Shown: one piece after another, positions 15,586 through 22,266 of the stretch | Layout of the letters: the number at the start of each line of letters is the position of its first letter | Numbering within the stretch: position 1 is the first letter of the stretch | NCBI GenBank assembly: GCA_019119265.1 | Contig: DWXI01000096.1 | Location: 1-44,534 of the forward strand | Length of the DNA: 44,534 nucleotides | Direction of reading: 5' to 3' | Source of the DNA: Candidatus Mediterraneibacter intestinigallinarum | Lineage (GTDB): Bacteria > Bacillota > Clostridia > Lachnospirales > Lachnospiraceae | The notes under the pieces: generated by a model | What the model saw: the letters and a program-made list of their open reading frames with translations, nothing else | What the model was told of the DNA's origin: nothing | The model's database searches: none | Made by a program: the position numbers and the translations under genes

Positions 15586-18500
15586 TTACAGCTTTTTCAG
15601 CGCTGGTATCCCATCCGCCGCAATGCTGTCAAAGTTCCACACATCCTCGCTCCAGCCAAGAGTCTCCGTATAGAACACTTTTTCTTTCACCTGCTCCTCT
15701 GTAACCGCAAATATCAGATCCGCATTTGTATCGTTCATACTGCTGTGGCTGTCCGACGTTTCCAGTTCATATGCGCTGCTCGACATGCCGAGCACATCCC
15801 AGCCGGAAATCCTGTTTGCATTTGCGCCGGTGCTCAGGCTGACTGCGCTCTCTACCGCCGCGCTTCCGCTCTGCGGTCCGCCGATGATGCCTCCGTTGCC
15901 AACCGGAGCCGGAGCTGTAATATTCACTTTTGTGACCACTCTTCGGATCGTTCCGCCACCCTGCCATCCGGTGATCCCGCCGGCACGGACGCCCATCGGA
16001 TGCACGCTTGTTCCTTCGATCGAGCCGCTCACAACGCAGTCCTCCATAATCTTTCCGTCGAACTGCCCTGCTATGCCTCCCATAGTATTATTGGATCGTA
16101 TGGAAATGTTCTCCACGGAAATCCTCCTGATCTCACTGTCGGCTATCGTTCCTGCAAGTCCGCCTGTCTGATTCGTATCATTGTTAATGGCCAGATCTTT
16201 CACACGGATATCCGTTACCACAGAATGTCTGATATCATTGGAAAGAGCTCCTTTCTGGGTATTCTGCGTAAGAGTCGTCCCTTCGATCGTCAGATTCGAG
16301 ACAGACGCCCCGTCTGTTTTCTCAAAGAGTACCGCATCCAGCCCGGATATGGTATGGCCGTTTCCGTCCAGCTCACCGGAGAAAGTCCCCGGAACTGCGA
16401 AATCTACACCTGACAGGCTGCTAAAATCAAGATCTTCTTCAAGCACATACTGCTTTTTCAGTGATCCCGCGGAATCCCCGATGGCAAGAAATTCCTCCAC
16501 CGTGGTAATCTTCCTGTCATTTACCGTCACACTCATATCGCCATATTCATAATACCCTTCCGTCTTCGTCTTCACGAGCGGGAGCGCCATATCCGTATCT
16601 TCCACGCGGATATTTCCAAGCGACACTTTCTTTGTCTTCACTGCGAAGAGCGCCTGCGCATCTCCCGCATAAAAAGGCGCGGAAATAGTCAGATCAGTCA
16701 CCTGCGCATACTGCAGATCCCCGAACAGAGGATACTTCATCCCGGTCATGCTGTACCCGTTTCCGTCCAGCATCCCGATAAATCTTCCCGGAATATAGCT
16801 GTCGCCGGATGCTGTTACATCTGTGAAATCAATATCCTGTTCCAGCCTGTAATATCCATATGGATTCTGCGCGGCGTATTGGATCAGTTCTTCTGCAGAT
16901 GTGACCGGTATCACCGCCGGGCTCTCATAAATACCGCCGTTGCTGAAGTCCCCCGTCACACGCTTGACCATGCCGTAGATCATCCGTTTTGTCTCGAAGC
17001 TCTGGTTCGTATTCCCGTTCACTGTATCCGCCTCAAATGCCGCTTTAAACTGCGCAATGACTGTATCTTTATCAAAATACGGAATCTGGTCCAGCTTCTG
17101 CTCCACTTCCCGGTAACGGTTCAGCTTATAGTCTCTCCATGTGATATCCGGGTTCCCGGTGATCTTGCGCAGTGCGTCCAGATCATTTTCACTGAGCGCG
17201 GACATAAATACCTGGTAGCCCTTTTCATAGCCTGCGAGCCCCAGCATCTCCTGCCCCAGCCGCTTGAAGGAATGGGTATCCGGCGAGCCGTTATCATTGT
17301 GAGACTGATACCAGTTCATCGTGTAAAACGACTCAAATCCATAGCTTCCGTCTGTAGCCGTGCCTATCTTTTCCGGATAAGACGCCGCATTGCGGACGGA
17401 AATCCTGTTATCCCACAAATCTTCCATGCTGTCGAGATCCATTGCGTCAATCTCTTCTGCTGTAAGTTTCTTGTAGGTAGTAGTCATAGAAGCATTGCCG
17501 CCCGCGGTATGTTCCGCCTGTACGGCCACCGCCGCCTGCTGCTGTGGAGTCAGTTCAAAAAATGCCTGAGCCGCCAGATAATCCAGTACATACCCGGTAT
17601 CAAACATCTCTTTATAGTAGCTGTGGACCTTCTGTGACGAACTAATTCGCTCATAACTGAAATTGTTCGGCATTTCCGTCCCGATATCCATGTTCTTTGC
17701 GATATTGAATACCATGACGCCATCTCTTGTCTCCTGGGCTATGTTTCCGTCTGCATGGGCCTCTGCGCCGGTTCCGTTTCTTCTTCCGGCTCCCCCGTAG
17801 AAATATTTTCCATCCTGGTTATGGGCTGTTTCATGGCTGAATGTAAAAAATGTATAATTGTCTGTTCCAAGTGCAGGACTCCACATCCAGATTACGATCG
17901 TTCCGTCTGCGACCGCCGCGCTTCCATTCAGGGCACTCAGCATATCCACAGATTCATATACCCATTTCATGACCGGATCCCGTGTTTTTCCCTTTTCCTG
18001 TGCTCCTGCCGCAGCCGCCTCACTCTCCGGAAAAGCAAGCCTCGTATCGAACTGGAGATTAACAAAGCTGTTGAGCCGCTCCACGGAATTACTCATCCAC
18101 TGCGAAGATACTCCGTAAAAGATCCCCATCTTCCCGGCATATTCTTCCGCAATAGCCCGGATCCGTTCACGTTCCTGCCCGTCTTTCTTAAGATACGTCT
18201 CATAGCGATTCATGCTTCCGATCACAATCTGTGACGGCACGGAAATCAGGTACATATCCTCCTGCGGTGCGGTCAGGATCGGAAGAACAATGTTTTTCCT
18301 GCTATCAGGCAGTCCCCTCAGATTATCCCAGATACGATAACGGATCCGGCCTTCATCGCCCGCTGCTTCCTGTTCCACTAAAATACCGCCGAAGGTATCT
18401 GCAAACCATGTGTTTCCATCTTCATATCCGCCTATGCTTTTCGCAAATCCGCCAAGGAAATCCATAAAGTCTTTCCCTGTAATATTCTTGAGCACATTGT

Positions 18501-21500
18501 TATAAAATGTCACTGTCTGTTTCGTGGCCCTCCAGTCTGCCGACGCACTCAGAAGACTTTCTGTCAGTACGTACGCATCGATATCTTCCGGCAATACTTC
18601 TTTTCCAAAAAACATCAAGTCACTTAAAATCACTCCCCCGTAGTCAATATGATACCATTTGTCGTAGTAATTGTAGGAATACAGATAACGCTTCAACGTC
18701 TCCTCGTTCCGTATACGCTCTTCTGCAAGAGCCTTCACTGCGGGATGCGCGCAGTAAGTCGGATACCACTCCTGAGAAGCGAACAGATCAGTCAGAATGC
18801 GTTCTGCTTTTCCCTGCACGCTCCCGCTGTAATAGTCCGCATACAGCCGGCTCTCCTCCTCCGGCGTGATTCCTGCGATATCTGTCTGATAATCATATGC
18901 AGATACAGCCGCCGTCAGGTCAGAGATCACGCTTTCATCGAAAGCTGCCGCATAATTGCGGAACTGATATCGGAACTCCTGCCCTTCAATCCCGTAAGAC
19001 GCCACGAGATCTCCCGCTAATCCCGCATCATTCAGAATATAATCCCGCCTTGTATCATCTTCAAATATCACACGTACTTTAGCCGCTTTGCCCGGGTCTT
19101 CCCTGTGGATCCCCGGGATGTATGTTCCCTCTCCGTCAAGCGGGAGTACATATTTGATCTTCTTTGCCGCAAGGTCATCTGACCCGGAGAGTCCGTTGCC
19201 ATATTCCACCCAGAGGGCTGTGTCCGCAAAAGGCATGAGATCCGCCATATTGGCATAAGCCGTCTCCCGTTCCGCCTGATAGTCTTCCTGGCGTTTCACC
19301 TCACTGTAAGAAGGAATCCCGTAATTGTTATCTTCGACAGGGGATCCGGCAAGCCGGGGAAGTTTCTTCAGGGACAGCCCGTCCAGGTTCCAGATCTTTT
19401 TGTCGAATCCAAGCGTATCCTCATAGAAAGTCCGCTCATAGACCGCCTCCGTCTCTTTTACATTGTTCCTGTTATCCTCTGTTATATTTGTCTCACTGCC
19501 GGAAGCGGAATACTCATACACCTTCCTCGCACTGTCCAGGACATCAAATCCCGCGATCCGGTATCCTGCTCCCGTACTCATGCTCAGACTGTACTCGATC
19601 ACCGGACTTCCCGTATTCGGTCCTCCGATAATCCCCCCGTTTCCTTTCCTTGCGGGAGCAAGGATCTCAGCCTTCGTATAACATCTGCTGATCTTTCCTC
19701 CGCCGTGCCAGCCGGTGATGCCCCCTGTTCTGGCCCCAAGGCTGGGATGATCATACGTCCCCTGCACCTTTCCGGTTACATAACAGTCCTCGATCAGAGC
19801 GCCTGTCTGTGTCTTGCCGACAATGCCTCCGACCGCCACAAGACCCTTTAGTGACACATTGACGGAAGCGCTCCTGCGAATCACAGAATCAGAAAGTCTT
19901 CCTGCAAATGCTCCCATCTCATCCACGCCGTTTGACACTGCGGAATCCACGATAAAGACATTTTCGATCAGCGACTGTCTCTGGATAGAATTGGCAAGGA
20001 TCCCGCTTCTCTGCACGGTAATGGACGCATCTTCGATCACAAGATCATGGATATGTGCTCCGCTCAGTGTGTCAAACATCGAAGTCGGCAGATTCCGTAT
20101 CCGGAAACCGTTTCCGTCCAGCTCTCCTGTGAATGTGCCTGCAATCGCAGGAGCATCCGCAGGAATCCCCGAAGCGTCCAGATCCTCCGTAAGCTCAAAT
20201 GTTCCCTTCGGCTCGTCAGCCATCTTGTCAAACAGCTCCTGCACGCTCTTGATCAGCGGATGCTCTCCGTCCTTATCTCTGTAAGCAACCGGGAAAGCAT
20301 ATCCTTCTATACGGTTTCCGTCGGCATCATACCGGATAATATCCTCCTGATCGATCACCGCCGAAACTGCTCCGCTTTTCTCTTGTCTGAACTCTGAGAT
20401 CCCCGTATAGAGGGCCGGCAGGCTTTCCATCCTGATCACTGCGTAATAATTCTCCGGATCTTCCGGAAGGCCGCCGGTAATATCAAGAATCTCTATTTCC
20501 TCTGTCTTCCCGTCTGTACTGTAATACAGTGTCGTCTCCGTAATGTCCTTCAGTTCGATGATTTCCTGTATCTCCTCATCAGGTTCTTCTGGTTCTGATG
20601 GCTCCTCTGGTTCTGACGGTTCTCCGGGTTTCGCTGGCTCTTCCGGCTCAGACGGTGCCTCCGGGTCTGTCGGATTCTCAGATTCCGGCGGATTTTCTAT
20701 CCCACGGACGAGAAGCGCCAGATCAGTCACTGTAAGCTGCCCGTCATCATTGAGATCCGCCGGTTCCTGTGCGTCCTGATCGAGAAGCTCCAGACCGATC
20801 AGATGTCTCTGGACCAGTTCCACATCTGTATAATCTGCATTCCCGTTTCCGTCTATATCGCCCTTTTCGCCTTTTGCCTCTGTCCGGATGCCCGCTGACA
20901 GGGCAAGCATACTGCAGAGGATCAGCCCGGCAAGTAACTTAGGACCATTCTTATTCTGTTTTCTCCTTCTTGTTCCGGTAATCAGAATTCCTCCTAATAC
21001 CGAAAGGGATACCAGAAGCAGCATGAGAAAAATGAAAATTCCAGCATCAGTATCACCTGTCTGTACACTCTGCTTTTCCTCGGACTGCTGTTCCGAAGAC
21101 AGCTCCGCTGAATCCTCACGATCTGCATCAGGCATCTCTTCTGCTCCTTCCGGTGTCTCCTCTGGATTTTCTTCTGAATTCACTGTCATCCGGAATTCAG
21201 TATCCTTCAGAAAAATATCTTCTTTTCCTTCAGATACAGAGATATCCTTTAATGTAATCGTTGTTTCTTTTACTTCAGCCTGCTCCTTCGCAGTTAGTGT
21301 CAGCTGGAACACATCTTCGTCCTCCACACTCCCACTCTTATTGATCACTGCAAACTGCCCATTTTCAGCATTGTACCGGAGCTGTTCCCAGCCGGACAAA
21401 GTCTCAAAATCCGTCTCTTCCGGTGCCTCAAAGATATCAGTATCATATGCAAGTGTCGCATTCAGTGCATAGATTCCCTCCTGAATATTATCATAGCCGG

Positions 21501-21660
21501 CAAGCGAAAATGTAAGTATAATCTCCTCTCCGGGCGCCGCTTCTGTCGTTCCGGACGACACCTGCATTTCCGGATTGCCTGCCCCTAATACATCTGCTCC
21601 AATCCATAAGAGTCCGCATATCAGTACCACTGCTGCCAGCAGGGCTCTTACTTTCCTCAT
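15586..21660 (-). CDS. M26-family (IgA1-protease-like) zinc metalloprotease with cohesin, sortase-like motif and dockerin
   Basis: This is a 2024-residue surface protein, numbered from the ATG at 21660 (a TTG at 21672 would add four residues; the AAAGGA site suits neither perfectly). Order: signal peptide 1-26; cohesin-like domain about 30-161; acidic linker; sortase-like VQTGD 199-203; membrane helix 207-227; RRRK; second hydrophobic segment 240-258; type I dockerin 266-323 with two calcium loops (DIDGNGNADYTD, DLNDDGQLTVTD); Pro/Glu linker; GLUG-type beta-helix about 508-700; protease domain with HETAH at 1276-1280 and E1300; second beta-helix about 1758-1950. HExxH followed 20 residues later by Glu is the M26 zinc site. 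An N-terminal sorting motif followed by two hydrophobic segments is the known layout of streptococcal IgA1 proteases and ZmpB. The substrate is not provable from sequence; IgA1 or mucin-type glycoproteins are candidates. It has its own promoter and terminator. Confidence 0.88.
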   Translation of the reverse strand: MRKVRALLAAVVLICGLLWIGADVLGAGNPEMQVSSGTTEAAPGEEIILTFSLAGYDNIQEGIYALNATLAYDTDIFEAPEETDFETLSGWEQLRYNAENGQFAVINKSGSVEDEDVFQLTLTAKEQAEVKETTITLKDISVSEGKEDIFLKDTEFRMTVNSEENPEETPEGAEEMPDADREDSAELSSEQQSEEKQSVQTGDTDAGIFIFLMLLLVSLSVLGGILITGTRRRKQNKNGPKLLAGLILCSMLALSAGIRTEAKGEKGDIDGNGNADYTDVELVQRHLIGLELLDQDAQEPADLNDDGQLTVTDLALLVRGIENPPESENPTDPEAPSEPEEPAKPGEPSEPEEPSEPEEPDEEIQEIIELKDITETTLYYSTDGKTEEIEILDITGGLPEDPENYYAVIRMESLPALYTGISEFRQEKSGAVSAVIDQEDIIRYDADGNRIEGYAFPVAYRDKDGEHPLIKSVQELFDKMADEPKGTFELTEDLDASGIPADAPAIAGTFTGELDGNGFRIRNLPTSMFDTLSGAHIHDLVIEDASITVQRSGILANSIQRQSLIENVFIVDSAVSNGVDEMGAFAGRLSDSVIRRSASVNVSLKGLVAVGGIVGKTQTGALIEDCYVTGKVQGTYDHPSLGARTGGITGWHGGGKISRCYTKAEILAPARKGNGGIIGGPNTGSPVIEYSLSMSTGAGYRIAGFDVLDSARKVYEYSASGSETNITEDNRNNVKETEAVYERTFYEDTLGFDKKIWNLDGLSLKKLPRLAGSPVEDNNYGIPSYSEVKRQEDYQAERETAYANMADLMPFADTALWVEYGNGLSGSDDLAAKKIKYVLPLDGEGTYIPGIHREDPGKAAKVRVIFEDDTRRDYILNDAGLAGDLVASYGIEGQEFRYQFRNYAAAFDESVISDLTAAVSAYDYQTDIAGITPEEESRLYADYYSGSVQGKAERILTDLFASQEWYPTYCAHPAVKALAEERIRNEETLKRYLYSYNYYDKWYHIDYGGVILSDLMFFGKEVLPEDIDAYVLTESLLSASADWRATKQTVTFYNNVLKNITGKDFMDFLGGFAKSIGGYEDGNTWFADTFGGILVEQEAAGDEGRIRYRIWDNLRGLPDSRKNIVLPILTAPQEDMYLISVPSQIVIGSMNRYETYLKKDGQERERIRAIAEEYAGKMGIFYGVSSQWMSNSVERLNSFVNLQFDTRLAFPESEAAAAGAQEKGKTRDPVMKWVYESVDMLSALNGSAAVADGTIVIWMWSPALGTDNYTFFTFSHETAHNQDGKYFYGGAGRRNGTGAEAHADGNIAQETRDGVMVFNIAKNMDIGTEMPNNFSYERISSSQKVHSYYKEMFDTGYVLDYLAAQAFFELTPQQQAAVAVQAEHTAGGNASMTTTYKKLTAEEIDAMDLDSMEDLWDNRISVRNAASYPEKIGTATDGSYGFESFYTMNWYQSHNDNGSPDTHSFKRLGQEMLGLAGYEKGYQVFMSALSENDLDALRKITGNPDITWRDYKLNRYREVEQKLDQIPYFDKDTVIAQFKAAFEADTVNGNTNQSFETKRMIYGMVKRVTGDFSNGGIYESPAVIPVTSAEELIQYAAQNPYGYYRLEQDIDFTDVTASGDSYIPGRFIGMLDGNGYSMTGMKYPLFGDLQYAQVTDLTISAPFYAGDAQALFAVKTKKVSLGNIRVEDTDMALPLVKTKTEGYYEYGDMSVTVNDRKITTVEEFLAIGDSAGSLKKQYVLEEDLDFSSLSGVDFAVPGTFSGELDGNGHTISGLDAVLFEKTDGASVSNLTIEGTTLTQNTQKGALSNDIRHSVVTDIRVKDLAINNDTNQTGGLAGTIADSEIRRISVENISIRSNNTMGGIAGQFDGKIMEDCVVSGSIEGTSVHPMGVRAGGITGWQGGGTIRRVVTKVNITAPAPVGNGGIIGGPQSGSAAVESAVSLSTGANANRISGWDVLGMSSSAYELETSDSHSSMNDTNADLIFAVTEEQVKEKVFYTETLGWSEDVWNFDSIAADGIPALKKL

Positions 21661-21700
21661 CTTCTGACTCAATCCTTTCCGCTTATTTTATTACGGACTG

Positions 21701-21787: not shown

Positions 21788-22266
21788 ATGTTTCGCGAAA
21801 TGCGCAGAAAAAAACAGAAATTATCAAAAGAAGAATGTGACCGCATCTTATACAATGGAACATCGGGAGTTCTGGCACTCCACGGAGATGACGGTTACCC
21901 CTATGCAGTGCCTGTAAGCTATGTCTACAATGGGGAAAACTTCTGTTCCACAGTGCCAAAAACGGGCATAAGATAGACGCCATATTAAAAAATGCAGCGG
22001 CTTCCTTCTGCGTCATCGATCAGGATCAGATCGTGCCGGAAGAATATACCACCTACTTCCGCAGCATCATTGCCTTCGGCAGAATCCGTATTCTGGAAGA
22101 CGACACTGAAAAACGCTCCGCTATCGAAAAACTTGCAGTAAAATATGCGCCTGATGACACTGCCGAAAACCGGGATAAAGCCATCGAACGGGAGTGGAAA
22201 CCGCTGTGTATGATGGAGATGGAGATAGAACATCTGACGGGGAAACAGGCGATAGAGATGATTTAA
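21788..22266 (+). pseudogene. pyridoxamine 5'-phosphate oxidase-family (NimA-like) gene, frameshifted
   Basis: Frame 1 begins MFREMRRKKQKLSKEECDRI and runs through GVLALHGDDGYPYAVPVSYVYNGEN, then fails with a stop at about 21974. A different frame continues FHSAKNGHKIDAILKNAAAS, then CVIDQDQIVPEEYTTYFRS to a normal end at 22264. Together they give the full length (about 159 residues) of a small FMN-binding split-barrel protein. One base appears missing near 21940-21946, because the total length is one short of a multiple of three. The family includes nitroimidazole-resistance-like proteins and general flavin oxidoreductases. A good GGAGG site precedes the start. It may be a genuine recent inactivation or a sequencing error. 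Confidence 0.85.

Follow-up and report, generated by a model that had tools for sequence, protein, structure and literature searches.

How does a gut protease stay at the cell surface if its chain is cut between the sorting signal and the enzyme? The question is raised by an M26 protease gene of Candidatus Mediterraneibacter intestinigallinarum (15586..21660, minus strand), carried on a stretch of 44,534 nucleotides (contig DWXI01000096.1 of assembly GCA_019119265.1, hereafter the window). Cohesins and dockerins are familiar mainly as a means of joining separate proteins; here a single precursor contains both partners, with two predicted cutting sites between them. The architecture is a conserved, self-contained anchor-and-enzyme precursor: the same modules, in the same order, are conserved and co-occur among relatives, and most related genomes with an M26 dockerin contain no other matched dockerin. 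We infer that sortase and signal peptidase probably split this precursor and that the dockerin thereafter keeps the enzyme attached to the cohesin of the same gene, the two cuts, the binding and its self-specificity all being part of that likelihood. If true, this would explain how gut M26 proteases are retained despite the cut, would offer a calcium-switchable surface display unit, and would bring the puzzling N-terminal sorting signal of M26 enzymes within reach of tests on two small purified domains.

The minus-strand frame is open from 15586 to 21672, and its start ATG at 21660 gives a protein of 2024 amino acids (aa) with the following parts.

15586..21660, minus strand: whole gene, 2024 aa, with cohesin, sorting signal, second signal-peptide-like segment, dockerin and M26 peptidase
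21580..21660, minus strand: first signal peptide, residues 1-27 (from sequence)
21178..21573, minus strand: cohesin, residues 30-161 (Pfam 32-148; Pfam, AlphaFold2 and fold comparison)
21067..21177, minus strand: acidic flexible linker, residues 162-198 (low predicted local confidence, pLDDT mostly 44-56)
21052..21066, minus strand: sortase-like motif VQTGD, residues 199-203
20968..21045, minus strand: first transmembrane helix, residues 206-231, followed by a basic RRRK stretch
20890..20943, minus strand: second hydrophobic segment, residues 240-257, shorter and signal-peptide-like
20875..20883, minus strand: predicted signal peptidase I site, TEA before K, residues 260-262
20704..20865, minus strand: type-I dockerin, residues 266-319, with two calcium-loop repeats
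19954..20598, minus strand: Peptidase_M26_N domain, residues 355-569 (Pfam)
17182..18933, minus strand: Peptidase_M26_C domain, residues 910-1493 (Pfam)
17821..17835, minus strand: zinc motif HETAH, residues 1276-1280
17761..17763, minus strand: third zinc ligand, E1300 (alignment to pneumococcal IgA1 protease)
15598..16905, minus strand: M26_N/GLUG-like region, second copy, at the C terminus (residues 1586-2021, approximately)

An earlier note, made from the letters of the window, had proposed this order of signal peptide, cohesin, VQTGD, helices, dockerin and M26 enzyme, and its positions hold to within a few residues. The Pfam searches that it called for returned cohesin, type-I dockerin, M26_N, GLUG motif and M26_C, every match lying above its curated cut-off. 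The dockerin (PF00404) scores 32.2 bits against a cut-off of 22.9, consists of two tandem calcium-loop/helix repeats and matches solved dockerins in profile searches. For the cohesin (PF00963), an above-threshold profile match is joined by a predicted cohesin fold; since the profile search against solved structures was weak (a single match, 3ul4_A, E 0.005), fold comparison was needed. The closest folds were the non-cellulosomal cohesins of Clostridium perfringens GH84C and GH33 (2vo8, 2jh2, 2w1n), so the fold claimed for residues 30-161 is borne out by predicted structure and fold comparison together. HETAH1276 and E1300, which the note had picked out, fall on the zinc-site residues when the protein is aligned to pneumococcal IgA1 protease, and the features that define the M26 family are present. 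The nearest named proteins in NCBIfam are ZmpA, B, C and D, all far below their cut-offs (191.5 bits against 3000 for ZmpA), and no G5 family appears among the Pfam matches (E up to 1). Pfam matched three M26_N stretches in the protein; the C-terminal region at 15598-16905 also matches the M26_N region of homologues and is a repeat of the M26_N/GLUG-like region that precedes the catalytic part.

On the reading we favour, the gene encodes a pair of secreted proteins as a single chain. A signal peptide, the cohesin and a sorting signal (VQTGD, helix and basic tail) would make up the first; the second would begin with another signal-peptide-like segment, directly followed by the dockerin and the M26 protease. 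Under our proposal, the chain would be exported as a membrane hairpin, and the dockerin would fold beside the membrane, where the cohesin of the same chain could grip it. Sortase would then cut between VQT and GD, joining the cohesin piece to the wall, and signal peptidase would cut between TEA and K, making the dockerin the new N-terminus of the protease. A calcium-dependent cohesin-dockerin bond would keep the enzyme at the surface, with anchor and enzyme made 1:1, and would permit its release or exchange. In the fuller version of this scheme, enzyme, plug and socket come from one precursor and locking in cis precedes both cuts, delivering a pre-loaded, 1:1, calcium-dependent and releasable wall complex; this would be a new mode of surface fixing, kept in gut Clostridia whether the motif is VQTGD-like, LPxTG-like or missing. 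We lean towards this version, with rather less assurance than towards the split and docking themselves.

Scanning genome contigs with the module alignment gave 48 loci, a search that finds only loci with one of three short patterns and may omit the window's own genome. Going by their record titles, most are from Mediterraneibacter and other Lachnospiraceae, several of them from chicken; the remainder belong to Sellimonas, Oscillospiraceae, other Clostridia and metagenome-assembled genomes labelled Bacilli. Cohesin and then dockerin occur in a single frame at 42 of the 48 loci, and in all of these except L114, where the frame ends early, the frame runs on into M26 sequence (41/42). An assembly artefact is thought unlikely because strain records show the same kind of open frame. 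The other six loci, with a match to cohesin only (L122, L134, L135) or dockerin only (L126, L129, L133) in the frame read, were excluded from the alignments. An HExxH region is present in 33 of the 41 M26 frames (HETAH or HESAH in 31, HEMEH in L124, HEFEH in L132), the other eight being shortened by a stop or a contig end. L124 and L132 are distant M26 homologues, in which HEMEH and HEFEH replace HETAH and the sequence that follows differs. Many homologues have about 200-800 extra residues between dockerin and M26. With the window included (n = 43 modules), Dockerin_1 matched all 43 and Cohesin 35 (E up to 0.01). Alignment A1 used 22 of 23 homologues, L073 being omitted as near another row by eye, and alignments A3 and A4 used 41 of 42, L100 being left out likewise; A27, the last residue of the first signal peptide, does not change across the 23 sequences of A1.

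Within the genus, M26_C is present in 22 of 58 genomes, with 26 matches after the removal of four fragment rows. Both modules accompany 22 of these genes, two have neither (L051, L056) and two are cut by contig ends; among genes with a readable start, then, both modules are found in 22/24 and neither in 2/24. In one of the 22 (G067:C113), module and protease lie in separate, interrupted frames. A 242-aa cohesin frame in G016 (L054) has neither a sorting signal nor a dockerin and so does not speak for a stand-alone ancestor.

VQTGD, the 26-residue helix and RRRK form a textbook sorting signal, but an internal rather than a C-terminal one. The DNA pattern for VQTGD occurs seven times in the genome, compared with none for a control pattern; four occurrences are C-terminal sorting signals, one is the window protein and two are not sorting signals. 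Five sortase matches were found in the same genome. At the sorting site, 27 of the 43 modules carry TG by pattern, and three more were recognised by eye (IPNTG in L118, LPQTG in L119, LPKTG in L124); the motif at this position is IPNTG, LPQTG (twice) or LPKTG in four distant members. Before the dockerin, position -1 is Ala in 38/43 and Gly in 3/43, and position -3 is occupied in all 43 by one of V, T, A, I, M and S. By these counts, the sortase motif varies more than do the hairpin, the cutting site and the dockerin. The earlier note had suggested a cut between the helices, and to this we add a conserved signal-peptidase-like site directly before the dockerin, the cut itself remaining a prediction from sequence. 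It would fall 61 residues after T201; PMC9637739 places the cleavage of M26 IgA1 proteases 56 residues beyond their N-terminal LPXTG.

Docking was addressed with AlphaFold2, comparing chains with and without their own dockerin. The predicted template modelling score (pTM) was 0.67 for residues 28-326 (299 residues, with dockerin) and 0.60 for residues 28-258 (231 residues, without it), or about 200 versus 139 residue-equivalents, an increase of some 60 on the addition of 68 residues. By our own estimate, a free-floating dockerin would give a pTM near 0.5. Since the observed value is higher, the dockerin appears to be placed confidently relative to the cohesin, which in the modelled chain implies cohesin-dockerin docking.

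Selection on the two modules was assessed from substitution patterns. Among five blocks compared in 34 sequences, the dockerin evolves slowest (mean distance 0.56, versus 0.71 for M26 and 1.06 for the cohesin), and the two transmembrane blocks (TM1 and TM2) are the most variable. In 12 chosen pairs, some with saturated dS, the ratio of nonsynonymous to synonymous substitution (dN/dS) lay between 0.08 and 0.36 in the cohesin and between 0.07 and 0.41 in the dockerin; by this measure, both are under purifying selection. Cohesin strands 3, 5, 6 and 8 (numbered by order) are more conserved than the rest of the domain (39 versus 35 residues, one-sided P 2e-4, core and surface pooled), and we take these strands to be the dockerin-binding sheet of type-I cohesins. 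Self-docking, the central suggestion of the earlier note, is thus favoured independently though indirectly, by purifying selection, by conservation of this presumed binding face and by AlphaFold2 confidence, as it is by the way M26 genes of the genus carry the two modules together or not at all and by the 20/24 genomes in which no second dockerin was matched; binding itself stays a likely deduction from these data. A mirror-tree analysis of the 34 of 43 sequences with near-full M26 gave a cohesin-dockerin partial correlation, given M26, of 0.39 (0 of 2000 permutations as high); co-evolution was nevertheless dropped as support, the pair correlating no better than cohesin and TM1 and less well than cohesin and TM2.

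The possible partners encoded elsewhere bear on self-specificity. An M26 dockerin is found in 24 of 58 genus genomes, 20 of which gave no further dockerin match at E 0.001 (others occur in G000, G067, G077 and G081). In eight of the 24 (G002, G020, G027, G033, G036, G071, G074, G076), cohesin matches are limited to the M26 cohesin; in three, no cohesin was matched, the M26 cohesin included. Many of the other cohesin matches lie in frames of roughly 450-550 aa, a kind present in many genus genomes, among them ones with no dockerin match. The window's genome has four cohesins and nine dockerins. Its eight other dockerins form one class, which by eye departs from the M26 dockerin where we take recognition to reside in type-I dockerins, and the one other dockerin examined in each of G067, G077, G081 and G073 is also of a different type. 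Taken together, these points make the cohesin of the same gene the likeliest partner of the M26 dockerin.

Several observations weigh against this reading. Docking in the model is read from a single measure, pTM, and prediction methods of this kind may be too ready to pair cohesins with dockerins, AlphaFold3 having a reported precision of 0.58-0.82 (PMC12997984). The mirror-tree signal is unspecific (cohesin-TM1 0.38 and cohesin-TM2 0.58, against 0.39 for cohesin-dockerin). TG stands at the sorting site in only 30/43 modules, seven carry AG or SG, and no recognisable motif was found in six (L112, L117, L123, L127, L128, L132). According to PMC7695701, sortase A attaches the mature streptococcal enzymes covalently to the surface, which is at odds with a simple split; given the disagreement between this statement and that of PMC9637739, processing in the known M26 family appears unsettled. 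Of the 24 genomes that have an M26 dockerin, 13 gave further cohesin matches, and the window's genome has three others (contig C35, two; contig C53, one). The Pfam model also misses the M26 cohesins of G034, G069, G079, G081, G010:C46 and G067:C8, so that the counts of an only cohesin are limited by its sensitivity.

Three other explanations draw on these points. If signal peptidase did not cut, the second hydrophobic segment could serve as a membrane anchor, and the cohesin could grip the dockerin in cis, bracing the enzyme or joining wall and membrane. AlphaFold2 confidence implies docking in just such an uncut chain, and the modules with AG, SG or no motif at the sorting site would suit it as well; the conserved -3/-1 signature before the dockerin, a second helix of 18 residues where the first has 26, and the cut reported at a similar distance in related M26 enzymes (PMC9637739) make it unlikely. 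Alternatively, the wall-bound cohesin might take up other dockerin proteins, and the M26 dockerin might join other scaffolds, in a system resembling a cellulosome or mucinolysome. The earlier note had allowed for the joining of other cohesins, and the additional cohesins and eight dockerin proteins of the window's genome, like the cohesin matches in 13/24 related genomes, keep such sharing in view. It is nonetheless made less likely by the different class of those eight dockerins, by the 20/24 genomes with no other matched dockerin and by the distance of the M26 cohesin from the C35 cohesins (27/95 and 6/15 identities in local alignments), and we rate it somewhat below the uncut chain. Least probable of all, though by a small margin, is that the modules are inherited leftovers that no longer bind, any anchoring being due to the sorting signal or the helices: the Pfam cohesin profile does miss 8/43 modules at E 0.01, but purifying selection acts on both domains, the dockerin is more conserved than the protease, and M26 genes of the genus carry both modules or neither. 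We therefore continue to favour a split precursor docked on its own cohesin.

Known systems share parts of this arrangement. Streptococcal and Gemella M26 metallo-IgA1 proteases (ZmpA/IgA1P) resemble the window protein in their M26 domains, in HExxH plus Glu, and in an N-terminal LPXTG-like signal placed before the enzyme with the reported cut 56 residues on; they differ in that the available part of PMC9637739 describes G5 and does not mention cohesin or dockerin, whereas in the window protein these two modules flank the hairpin and Pfam detects no G5. In C. perfringens, AlphaFold3 predicts a contact between GH31-Coh and GH31-Doc; in an earlier assay, binding by the GH31 cohesin was not seen. 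The available text (PMC12997984) mentions neither a sortase signal nor a second signal peptide between these modules. Ruminococcus flavefaciens ScaC-type adaptors (PMC4081043) and scaffoldin-like proteins of ANME (PMC9012536) likewise unite cohesin and dockerin in one polypeptide, but serve as adaptors or scaffolds for other proteins, and the portions of these papers available describe neither a protease nor a split anchor. The Limousia mucinolysome, also from animal-gut bacteria, has dockerin-bearing peptidases, a sortase-anchored cohesin and scaffoldins with cohesins predicted to bind the scaffoldins' own dockerins; as far as the available text of PMC12997984 goes, it uses separate scaffoldins and many dockerin enzymes, unlike the anchor and enzyme from one gene seen here. 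A cellulosome has a multi-cohesin scaffoldin shared by many dockerin enzymes; the window gene, with a single cohesin and a single dockerin in a genome whose remaining dockerins are by eye of another class, does not fit that description. Among the matches listed from titles and abstract openings in open-access PMC, none concerned an M26 protease with both cohesin and dockerin.

Other genes with such modules were seen on further contigs. G000:C35 (L013, 1-18324) and G000:C249 (L014, 2723-16488) encode eight proteins that end in dockerins of a single class. Four of the eight were scanned with Pfam: one is transglutaminase-like with Big_2, one RCC1-like, two gave no other match, and no glycosidase was found among the four. 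Two cohesin proteins are encoded on C35, one of 270 aa with cohesin and a transmembrane segment, the other of 854 aa with cohesin, Big_2 repeats and VQTGD. Together, the C35 and C249 genes look like a cellulosome-like surface system. A cohesin-like membrane protein at L015 (2-1285) adjoins a gene that is LytR-like by eye. In the window itself, two short plus-strand frames (62 and 77 aa, 21788-22266) lie upstream of the protease gene and are seemingly interrupted, the first resembling a pyridoxamine-phosphate-oxidase-like protein by eye.

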